DNA of 64,000 bases from Sinohyriopsis cumingii (Eukaryota; Mollusca; Bivalvia; Unionida; Unionidae). Every line of letters begins with the position of its first letter. The stretch's first letter is position 1. The notes under the pieces are model-generated. The model did not search any database. It was not told the DNA's origin and saw nothing but the letters and a program-made list of their open reading frames with translations. A program made the position numbers and the translations under genes. Of the stretch, positions 1,685-57,860 are shown piece after piece. Location of the stretch: positions 4,553,501 to 4,617,500 of the forward strand of contig JAPYKE020000037.1 of the NCBI GenBank assembly GCA_028554795.2, read 5' to 3'.

Positions 1685-1832
1685 CTGAGCACGTGGATCC
1701 TTCTATCAGATCGTCGTCATCACTAGCATTTAGTTTTGAATCAGAAGAGATCCTCATGGTGTTAACCAGGTGTTCACACCACTCAGTCATTATCTCCCTT
1801 GTATCAGCAGAGAGGTAGACTGTACTGAAAAC
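1685..1832 (-). CDS. Exon of the multi-PH gene: end of PH3 and acidic tail
   Basis: 148-nt exon between TTTATTTCAG|GTTTTC (phase 0) and GCTCAG|GTAAGTC (phase 1). It encodes VFSTVYLSADTREIMTEW, the last PH strand and C-terminal helix with the invariant Trp, then EHLVNTMRISSD and an acidic run NASDDDDLIEGSTC. Because it ends in phase 1 with no stop codon, the gene continues. I found no convincing next exon in positions 1-1684, so it probably lies outside the window. Together the four confident exons encode about 881 residues. Confidence 0.85.
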
Positions 1833-1880
1833 CTGAAATAAAGTTGAATGGAGCATTTAGATTCTTGATTTATAGGAAAA

Positions 1881-2065
1881 CGGTGAGCACAGTTATAAAT
1901 ATATGAGTCTGAGAAAGAAAGAAAGAAAGAAAGAGAGAAAGAAAGAAAGAAAGAAAGAAAGAAAGAAAGAAAGAAAGAAAGAAAGAAAGAAAGAAAGAAA
2001 GGGTGAGCACAGTTATAAATATATGAGTCTGAGAAGGAAAGAAAGAAAGAAAGAAAGAAAGAAAA
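1881..2065. repeat. (GAAA)n flanked by a duplicated 34-bp block
   Basis: GTGAGCACAGTTATAAATAT plus ATGAGTCTGAGAA occurs before each of two (GAAA)n runs. Lies about 50 bp upstream of the acceptor of the exon at 1832 (minus-strand direction). Confidence 0.9.
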
Positions 2066-2672
2066 GTCAAAATTTAAGCAGCTTAGACGTTTCAGTCATT
2101 TCTTTCTTTCTTTCCCATTTCAGAGAGCAAATAGAAAGTTCTGAATATGACATGCATGTTGTAAATAGCGCCGTCTAAACGAATAGCACAGGAGTATGAT
2201 TCACCGATTTGAGCTATATCCTTTCTTGAATATAACAGATGTTATAATAAACCATAACTAGTGTTGTTCATTTTATTTATGATTTCAATTGACAACTGGT
2301 GAACATACATACATACATACATACGCAGAGCGTCTATTTCTAATTATAATTTCAAGCAAATGTACTTGCATTTCTAAACAGAAAACGTTGCCTGCATATA
2401 GCTGAAAGTAAAACGTCTGCACGCAAAAAGAGAAAGAGAGTTATACTGCACCTAGAGTCGTTGCGTTCGAACATGTTTCATCCTCTGTGTGTGTGTGTGT
2501 GTGATGGGTATGGGGTGGCGCTATTGCATTTTACTGGCGGCATTCATCACAGACTAACTTATTTACGTATATTTGGTATGATTGAAAATAAATCTTTCAT
2601 ATAATTATGTATCAAAAAACATGCAACATGAGATCCGTTTTCACTCTTTGGTATATAGGTGTTAATACTTAC

Positions 2673-54796: not shown

Positions 54797-55031
54797 CGTA
54801 TATGCTCGCATATAAGACAGATTCTATTCCAAATAATAAAGACCCTGAAATGCTGTCGTATGATGCTCCGGCAGATCAGAAACTATGATGTTTGTTCTAC
54901 TGCTTGGTCCCAACACTTTGTTGAAAACAGTAGTACTGGCCCAGATATGCCGGCGCCTTATGCAACGGTAGAGCGAGGTCAGTGCAGCGCAGCCTGGAGT
55001 TTCTTTGGACTTATAAGCGAATATATACGGT
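54797..55031. mobile_element. Short TIR element (MITE)
   Basis: About 235 bp with ends CGTATATGCTCGCATATAAG and, inversely, CGTATATATTCGCTTATAAG (16 of 20 match). The outer sequence ACGGTAAGC resembles the CCGTAT-type ends of a MITE common in invertebrates. A spurious 71-codon frame crosses it. Confidence 0.55.
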
Positions 55032-55724
55032 AAGCACACACAAGAACTTTTATTTAATGTGTAAGCGCACAGTTATGAAAACTTTCATATATTATATCAT
55101 AGTTCTTTGTTTCACGTCCTGTATGTTTATCGTTTTGCAAACGCAAGCAATTAAGAATATCTTATTTTCATCGATGACTTTATCATATTATATTTTTAAA
55201 TTGTCGTAAAACTATAGTTTATTTCCAGAGGATTGGAAAATAAATTACTGAAACAGCCATATTGCATGAATTAAATCGGTTGAAATGCCTGCGCTTGTAT
55301 TTTATATAAGACACTTTTGCTTCCAAATCTTCTCTTAAAGATTTGTTGTTTAATGAACTCCTTGCTAGATTTCTGTAGATATGTATGTTTCTAGTTTGAC
55401 CAATTAGTCTTCTGTTAATCGGATTTGACATGGTAATTTTTCACTAGTGTTAGAGCTATGGACTTCATTTACGCATATATATGTGCCCATGGAAAAAAGG
55501 ACGTTATCATACTCCAAAACACCTAAGAAGAACTAACCTATTATATACAAACACCACCAATCTAAAGTAAAATCAGGGGAAATAGCAATATATGCTTGTG
55601 CAAACATTGCAATATCAACTAAAAGTGTAAGTAGTAGTGATATCTTCTAAAGTTTTTATTATATTCATGAGTCTGCAAATAATGTTTCAGTTGGAAAATG
55701 TTATGAGACGAATAAAAATCCTAC

Positions 55725-57860
55725 CTTGACGTCCGTCTCAGTTCTTGCATCTCTCTGCACATGAGTGTCATCATCAATGACAAGCATATTTTCCCCTACG
55801 TTAGTAGTCAGTCCCCCAATTGCACTTTCCTCCTTCCGTTTCCGGTACGCTTTCAACTTGGAACGAATCACATTGAAAAGATACCCCCGTTCGTTTTGCC
55901 ATACATGTGTCACCGCTCGGTCGTGTGTCGGGAATTGCAAAGAATGACTTGGCCTTGCCAATACAAGGTTATCTTCCTTTTTTGAACTCGCACTTCCTGA
56001 GGTCTCATAATCATCTGATGAAGAGATAACACTAGGTTCCGGTGTTGTCAAGATCGTTCTTGATGTAGGAGGACACGAGGAATTTCTGAGCTTCCGAGGA
56101 GGTTTCACAGGAGCCTGTTTCGGCTTTCCAGAGTCTTTCTCCTGGGCAGTTTGGTCTGAATAATTAGGTCCAGAAATACAAGAATCAGGGGTCTGAATAG
56201 GATTCCTGGAAGAAGCGATACTATGCGTAACCGGGTCATTTGGCTTATGGTCAGTATTATATTGTTTCTCCTTGTTAACTATGTCAGATTGCACATTGTT
56301 AGCTTCCATATGCAAAACCTGCACCCAGCGGCTCAACTCGTTGTTGTCCCCGGCACTTAGATATAAACTTTTTGAATTTGGGCGTGACAATTTGAACACA
56401 AACTTCCTCTTATGTTTCCTTTCTTGTTCAGAAAGAATGCTAATTGTGCATTGGTTTAGTAAGATAGCAAAGTGCGGAGGGTCCTCAGGAGACTGTGATT
56501 TGAATGAGTAAAAGCATCCGTGGCATACTGCACACCAGTGTTTAAGCCACTTCAAGAGGTGCTTGCAGTATAGGTGTCCGTGAATTGAACAGTCCGTCAA
56601 ATCTCCAAGTCTAATGGCTGATTTTGAATCTCTTTTGGTGATTACCCTTTCTTTTAAGTCTGACGCTCGTCTAATGATGTTGGTGTCCTTCGACCTTGAC
56701 TTCCCCGATGACTTCTTGGTGGAGGACGAATTGCTAATATCAAAAGAAGTTGCCAGTGGAGTTGGGTGTGTCGTGCTGTCGCTGTCCATGCTCCGTAAAG
56801 ACGTCTGACCACCTGAAGACATGCTATCTACACTCGTCGTGTCCTCCATTGAACTAGAGTCAATCAAATCCTTCTTCGGCTTTTTCTTTCTAAATTTCAG
56901 TAGACTTTCTAAGCTACCACCAAACGATCGGATCTTCTTGGAAGAATTGGGTTTGCTCTCTTTACTGGGTGCTTTATCGAAATGCTGAGCTTTGATCGGA
57001 GCATGCTTTGATTGCTCGTGCTCTGTGTCCAACCCTCGCAATCTCTTTCTAAATTCCTGCAAAGATTGACCTTGAAATTGAGATTCTTGCTGACTAGCAC
57101 CAATGCCATTCTGAGCACTAAGCATTTTGTCTGCTTCAGCCGTCCCGCAGTTGGATACTTTTTGAACACGACTTGAGGAATCTGAGCTGGGAATATACCT
57201 AGGAGTTGTGCACCCGGAATCCTCAGTTTCACATTGTCTCTCTTGCAATATAGAATTCAAAGAACTTCTCCTTTCTAGCATCATTCCATTAATAGGATCT
57301 GGATCCAGATTTGAAGCAGTCTCCAATACATTAACCCACACATTTAAAGATGCTTGATTCTCAACACTAAATATATGTTTTCGTCGTGCGCTACAGTTAT
57401 CTATAACCATTTGATATTTTCCTATACCCGTAACTGTGTTCGTATTGGATCTTGTTTTCAGGCCGTTGATTGCAGTTTTGTAAATAAGGGGTCTTACATT
57501 GCAACCAGGCAAGAGAAGCACTTCTAACGGTCGCTCGGCATGGTCATTCTCACACACACATAATATCATATCCACTACTGCGCACCATACCCTTTTACCG
57601 CCGCCTGACTGCCAAGTCATCCATCCCGAATGATCGGGTAATGAAAGATCTGACATTGATATGTTATTTGTGCATGATGGCGGCTTGGTATCCAACTGAA
57701 CAGGTGTCAGCGTCTGAGCTGGATCCACTTTAAGAGCCATGCTGCTTCCGTTTGGCATCAAAAGGAAATACTTTCGGAGCTGCCTCTGCACTGATGATTG
57801 AGTGATCGAGAGCCGTCGATTGGCGTCAGCGCCATCTTGGTCTGTGTCAGAATGGTATTC
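55725..57860 (-). CDS. Large internal exon of a multi-PH-domain protein (PH1 and PH2)
   Basis: One open frame of 2136 nt (712 codons). The upstream boundary is a good acceptor (TTTCGTTTCCAG before GAATAC at 57860). The downstream boundary is a donor (CAAG|GTAGGA at 55724), after which a read-through frame stops within eight codons. The frame stays open for 23 codons before the GTG at 57791, so that GTG is not the start. Both ends are phase 0. PH1 spans about exon residues 77-184 (starts SGWMTW, conserved helix Trp in NVWVNVL). PH2 spans about 428-520 (starts GHLYCKHLLKW, helix Trp in SRWVQVL). Between them is a Ser-rich, basic linker with RKKKPKKD. After PH2 come a proline-rich PVKPPRK motif (about 584-590), which could bind SH3 domains, and an acidic DDYE tyrosine motif. 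PH domains commonly bind phosphoinositides or proteins, so a membrane or cytoskeletal adaptor role is inferred. AFAP1- or MPRIP-like proteins are possible relatives, not confirmed. Confidence 0.9.

Follow-up and report, generated by a model that had tools for sequence, protein, structure and literature searches.

Gene structure and homologues

A 64,000-nucleotide (nt) stretch of the genome of the unionid bivalve Sinohyriopsis cumingii (contig JAPYKE020000037.1, positions 4,553,501 to 4,617,500; hereafter, the window) carries coding exons for PH domains on both sides of a very large intron, raising the question of whether these exons form one gene and whether the intron plays a part in its expression. 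An initial annotation, made from the letters of the sequence, had proposed a single gene with three PH domains. We consider it quite probable that the locus is one unionid adaptor gene with two starts, whose products would act as a membrane-associated or cortical scaffold, this being the best explanation of the evidence given below. Positions are those of the window, and the exons, domains and motifs of this gene all lie on its minus strand.

The gene was rebuilt by script from the window as four exons of 2136, 206, 154 and 148 nt with cumulative phases of 0, 2, 0 and 1, and the spliced product of 881 residues had a frame open throughout. The coordinates, lengths, GT donors and AG acceptors of the initial annotation were thereby reproduced. 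The donors read, in exon order, AAG|GTAGGA, AAG|GTAGAA, GAA|GTAAGT and CAG|GTAAGT, and the acceptors finish with CAG or TAG, that of the third exon being unusual in consisting of a TTA-repeat run with a terminal TTAG. The large coding exon (55725..57860; 712 residues), recognized by its open frame, splice sites and two Pfam PH stretches, contains PH1, a basic linker, PH2 and a proline-rich linker, and is 84.6% identical to residues 5-708 of the Potamilus protein P0001. An intron of 51,145 bases separates it from the 206-nt exon at 4374..4579, encoding a linker (RRSRSF to RKKHKPL) and the start of PH3 (splice sites; 87% in tblastn with P0001), which is followed by the 154-nt exon for the middle of PH3 (2673..2826; 100% in tblastn with P0001) and by the 148-nt exon for its end and the beginning of the next linker (1685..1832; splice sites, phase-1 donor; 75% in tblastn with P0001).

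A protein search with the 881-residue product returned 19 proteins at E ≤10 among 7471 candidates, the best match being P0001, a predicted protein of 1190 aa from the unionid Potamilus streckersoni, which aligns with 100% of the query at 86% identity. In pairwise alignment P0001 ran unbroken through each of the three junctions, with no residue inserted or missing: TETDVK (703-708)|GSRDIRR (709-715), WIR (777)|YWY (778) and LWHE (825-828)|VFSTVY (829-834). The segment GSTCS (870-874)|GCDTT (875-879) was likewise contiguous, and the fourth exon closes on a single G, in phase 1, where P0001 goes on with GCDTT (Gly 875), as the phase needs. The joins proposed in the initial annotation, including the split codon between 4374 and 2826 and QLWHE|VFSTVYLSAD, are therefore contiguous in a homologue to an extent beyond chance. 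The large exon was about 85% identical to both its Potamilus and its Sinanodonta counterparts, as expected of a unionid-like bivalve. When the 19 proteins were compared with the window by tblastn the same exons were recovered; the large exon was a true match for all except P0019, which meets it only by a cross-match of PH3 to PH2 (a cross-match also seen with P0006 and P0018), and the third exon (2673-2826) was matched by eight of these 19 first-search homologues, the others stopping before PH3. Six full-length proteins (P0001, P0003, P0004, P0006, P0012 and P0016) align over PH1, PH2, PH3, a coiled coil and the C-terminal end, and the same domain order was found in Mya, Mytilus and Haliotis proteins and also in Mercenaria and Pecten. 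P0003 (1204 aa) comes from a contig just 4,070 bases long, which has no room for such introns and which we infer to be akin to complementary DNA (cDNA); its part from PH3 to the end was closest, among the matches listed, to Mercenaria (71%).

Judged from these alignments, the four exons form a single gene that is conserved in both bivalves and abalone, and the proposal that the large exon with its two PH domains belongs with the three PH3 exons is supported by homologues from several molluscs, in which one protein can be aligned over PH1, PH2 and PH3 together. Some observations weigh against this: the fourth exon was matched at tblastn E ≤1 by just three of the eight homologues reaching PH3 (P0001; P0003, E 0.044; P0006, E 0.31), the named homologues are predicted gene models, and in P0003 just two of the three PH domains pass the Pfam threshold alone.

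The window appears to hold the central part of the gene. The first coding exon (MTNTK in P0001) had no match in the window by a degenerate pattern allowing at most one mismatch, and P0001 had no tblastn match within the window past residue 881, so the coiled coil and final helix would be encoded beyond its left edge. The exon list of the initial annotation was thus correct for its four exons and incomplete for the first coding exon, the parts past residue 881 and a probable internal exon described below. Past the large-exon donor the frame continues through 55701-55724 to a stop after VGFLFVS. The Sinanodonta model P0002 ends much like a read-through of this kind, and the Mactra model P0005 may do so too; a two-PH form made by intron retention at this donor is therefore possible.

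Identification of a probable internal first exon

The Dreissena isoform X2 (P0022, 682 aa) has one PH domain and an N-terminus of its own, lacks PH1 and PH2, and enters the common part near the residue corresponding to 4579. Residues 164-177 of this isoform, LRRKLIINPTWKAV, matched the minus strand of the window at 27449-27408, LRRKLSINPSWKAV (tblastn E 0.006), within the 51-kb intron. Twelve of the 14 residues are identical, the runner-up place in all six frames of the window reaching 7/14 and 60 shuffled 14-residue motifs reaching at most 7 identities. As a control, 166 pieces of 14 residues from P0022 1-180 were examined, 153 of which reached 7 identities or fewer and 13 of which reached 8 to 12; most of the latter are taken to overlap the single match. 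The match defines a probable alternative first coding exon at 27411..27467, MASSLTLRRKLSINPSWKA, with an ATG at 27467 and a phase-0 end at GCT|GTAAGT that would join it to 4579. A chance donor at 27411 is unlikely because the minus strand of the 51,145-base intron contains just 14 GTAAGT words. The predicted join, MASSLTLRRKLSINPSWKA|GSRDIRRSRSF, parallels the Dreissena sequence LRRKLIINPTWKAVPSREVRRARSF, with the donor no more than about two residues away from the junction in Dreissena. In Pinctada (P0023), RKLVMRPRWSHLMG stands directly ahead of the same junction and contains a related motif, RKLVMRPRW.

These features suggest that 27467-27411 is probably a first exon inside the intron, served by a promoter of its own, and that the gene probably makes two forms. 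A start upstream of 57860 would give the long form with three PH domains, the internal first exon would give a short form limited to PH3 and the coiled coil, and both starts would be used in this animal. Several observations count against this interpretation. The case for the internal exon depends on 14 residues matched in a single Dreissena isoform; the P0023 model also holds part of PH2, so that its motif reads there as an internal exon, and this motif searched alone in the window gave a best match of 5/10, nothing special; another short form, P0019, has a different N-terminus with no convincing match in the window. It could accordingly be argued that the gene has a single start, the match being due to chance or a relic and the intron being functionless, as a near-identical segment was present among the 29 collected proteins only in P0022 and a looser one only in P0023, and the match spans just 14 residues. 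We regard this as unlikely, given that neither shuffled motifs nor any other place in the window exceeded seven identities and that the match lies on the correct strand, between the correct exons, and is followed by a gtaagt donor in the correct phase. A literature search on internal promoters in bivalves found nothing.

PH domains, linkers and lipid signature

Pfam PH (PF00169), with a gathering score of 25.1 bits as cut-off, identified two stretches in the large exon (66.2 bits, E 4.5e-18) and a single stretch, at residues 55-146 of the 169, in the spliced PH3 segment (37.1 bits, E 4.9e-9), in agreement with the three domains originally proposed; P0001 also carries three such stretches. Two AlphaFold models were calculated, the first of P0001 with 23 sequences and the second of the large exon alone. 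PH1 (57315..57629; core SGWMTWQ...VNVLETA), supported by Pfam, showed seven strands and a C-terminal helix in both models, and its ten-residue means of the predicted local distance difference test (pLDDT) were mostly 76-95, with one loop near 54. In the first model PH1 and PH3 were folded at pLDDT about 90, the seven-stranded sandwich with C-terminal helix being seen for both, and the best Foldseek matches were solved PH domains (DAPP1, PLEKHA7 and SKAP-Hom); in the second, confidence was lower and PH1 was again folded. The fold of PH2 was recovered in neither model, which counts against a structural assignment of this domain. PH2 (56304..56582; core HGHLYCK...VQVLHME) therefore rests on sequence evidence, namely the best Pfam stretch (residues 435-519) and matches to PH domains of the PDB (best E 4.7e-5).

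Between PH1 and PH2, the basic linker motif KKIRSFGGSLESLLKFRKKKPKK (56871..56939) was well conserved in the six-protein alignment. The proline-rich APVKPPRKLR (56085..56114) was retained in P0001, P0003 and P0004 but is missing from Mytilus P0006 and from both Haliotis proteins, P0012 and P0016; it is a possible SH3-binding site. Downstream of PH3, the P0001 model contained helices at 880-922, 936-965 and 982-1011, corresponding to the coiled coil, and a final helix at 1163-1187. A pattern search found the C-terminal motif in 14 of the 29 collected proteins, that of Ciona included; many of the other 15 end earlier.

The phosphoinositide-binding signature of PH domains is K-Xn-K/R-X-R in strands 1 and 2. 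In the 23-sequence alignment the last Arg of this signature was present in none of the usable rows (0/20 for PH1, 0/21 for PH2 and 0/15 for PH3), and V, H and Y are encoded by the window at the three positions. Rows that were gapped, fragmentary or misaligned were excluded (P0018, P0019 and P0023 for PH1; P0019 and P0023 for PH2), as were eight rows ending before or within PH3 from the PH3 count. As the signature Arg is missing in all three PH domains, binding to protein or to an atypical lipid seems likelier than binding to the usual phosphoinositides. The PH domains might instead be classical phosphoinositide sensors, bringing the protein after receptor signalling to membranes rich in phosphatidylinositol trisphosphate (PIP3); their fold and sequence are closest to the PH domains of PLEKHA, PEPP, IPCEF1, SKAP and FARP, several of which bind phosphoinositides, but the absence of that Arg from every usable row renders this improbable. 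We favour instead the reading of the protein as an oligomeric scaffold, likely to be located at the membrane or cell cortex: the coiled coil would oligomerize the protein, and the clustered PH domains would anchor it there, mainly via proteins or weak lipid contacts. The short form, which would also have the coiled coil, could tune or compete with the long form.

Relationship to other PH-domain proteins

By its PH1-PH2-PH3 order and its 86% identity to P0001, the product belongs to a family of uncharacterised molluscan PH proteins that includes Potamilus CHS0354_000284, Mya LOC128203048, Mercenaria LOC123526851, Mizuhopecten LOC110450192 and Dreissena LOC127881060. The domain order is shared within the family, and the Mya, Mytilus and two Haliotis proteins were 33-38% identical over at least 90% of the product, whereas the N-termini vary widely, with long extensions in Mercenaria, Mizuhopecten, Ylistrum and Haliotis asinina. 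The extensions of Mercenaria and Haliotis asinina had no convincing match among the window matches listed, the best Mercenaria one (E 0.001) being the large exon itself. In some bivalves the region of the large exon seems, from the ends of the models, to be split by an intron.

A search with the part of P0003 from PH3 to the C-terminus gave, among the 16 matches listed, two named non-molluscan proteins, from Ciona (E 4.3e-13) and opossum (Monodelphis FGD6, E 2.5e-3), the latter over a PH-sized stretch equal to 24% of the query. No other candidate for a vertebrate orthologue occurred among these matches, which does not imply absence from vertebrates. The protein of the tunicate Ciona intestinalis (LOC100176971, P0028; 1811 aa) resembles the molluscan ones in having three PH domains, a coiled coil and the C-terminal EIDPSVMAGIEMFEEFTK; it differs in its far longer linkers and in the clear alignment being limited to PH3 and the coiled coil (28% over 310 columns in BLASTP; hhalign probability 99.5). 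Profiles of the molluscan PH1, PH2 and PH3 scored 13.5, 16.4 and 5.1 bits, respectively, against the first PH domain of Ciona, 0.9, 21.5 and 10.4 bits against the second, and 20.2, 44.3 and 70.5 bits against the third, which was the best target of all three; the PH domain of FGD6, used as a control, scored 40.6 with the PH3 profile. As neither PH1 nor PH2 has a specific partner among the first two PH domains of Ciona, common descent is established just from PH3 onward, and that of the whole layout in molluscs and Ciona is likely.

With these relationships in hand, the notion of two adjacent genes, one with two PH domains ending in the large exon at the read-through stop and the other with PH3 and the coiled coil, is very unlikely: it draws on the Sinanodonta P0002 and, seemingly, Mactra P0005 models ending by reading past the large exon and on Dreissena P0022 and P0019 lacking PH1 and PH2 and having their own N-termini, but in Potamilus, Mya, Mytilus, Haliotis, Mercenaria and Pecten single proteins extend over PH1, PH2 and PH3, the Ciona protein has three PH stretches, and P0003 holds the whole protein on its short contig, which contradicts such a division if this contig is cDNA. 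A separate promoter upstream of 4579, which the initial annotation had thought would speak against a single gene, is probable as an additional start for a short isoform and fails as proof of two genes.

AFAP proteins (AFAP1, AFAP1L1 and XB130/AFAP1L2) are described as having two PH domains and SH2- and SH3-binding motifs, with a coiled coil or leucine zipper at the C-terminus (PMC4068053). They resemble the triple-PH family in their general layout, and are set apart by having two PH domains rather than three. The triple-PH family may, by analogy, work like AFAP-type adaptors. Membership in the AFAP family itself was rejected given the three PH domains, and no AFAP-named hit occurred among the matches listed, many of which are nameless. 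The tail of myosin X also has three PH domains in one protein, but those members of the triple-PH family that were scanned gave no match to a motor, MyTH4 or FERM domain. Only myosins came up in a literature search on proteins with three PH domains, and six locus names of the family, that of Ciona included, were not found in the literature searched.

Other sequence elements of the window

A gene nested in the large intron was considered and rejected, as 10 of the 34 open frames of at least 100 residues were scanned with no Pfam match above the cut-off; the other 24 are exon frames, repeats or overlapping frames. A 126-residue frame on the minus strand (32926-33306) has a weak C2H2 zinc-finger-like stretch below the cut-off and is perhaps a gene or transposon relic.

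A repeat of about 300 bases occurs in about nine copies (5338-5655, 8280-8604, 12071-12324, 22067-22353, 26805-27091, 33890-34210, 38310-38631, 59262-59527 and 61283-61572) and shorter pieces. Transfer RNA (tRNA) calls at 5580-5653, 38556-38628 and 8529-8600 fall inside three of the copies; we read the repeat as a family of short interspersed nuclear elements (SINEs) and the tRNA calls as SINE heads. Another dispersed repeat, about 240 bases long (3585-3835, 16252-16482, 37682-37914, 11913-12072 (partial), 49835-49964 and 20042-20147), has one copy within the intron that separates the first PH3 exon from the second, and is perhaps also a SINE. A minisatellite at 20264-21636 (22-base unit, 62 copies) keeps plus-strand frames of 149 and 197 residues open, and inverted repeat pairs were found at 32265-32758/46201-46703 (85% over 507 columns) and 18060-18390/19713-20037 (91% over 331 columns).

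Discussion

The gene is that of an ordinary PH adaptor, of interest for its probable second start. A wider proposal, which we put forward tentatively and at somewhat less than even confidence, is that of a conserved two-start gene, present in unionids and dreissenids and perhaps also in pearl oysters, in which the short form from the intron promoter would co-assemble with the long form and limit it, within a scaffold family older than the split between molluscs and chordates. The locus shows that a gene with a 51-kb intron could be correctly assembled from raw sequence alone, and draws attention to a conserved and little-studied family of three-PH adaptors. The candidate internal exon predicts a short isoform, and large introns such as this one may conceal alternative starts.

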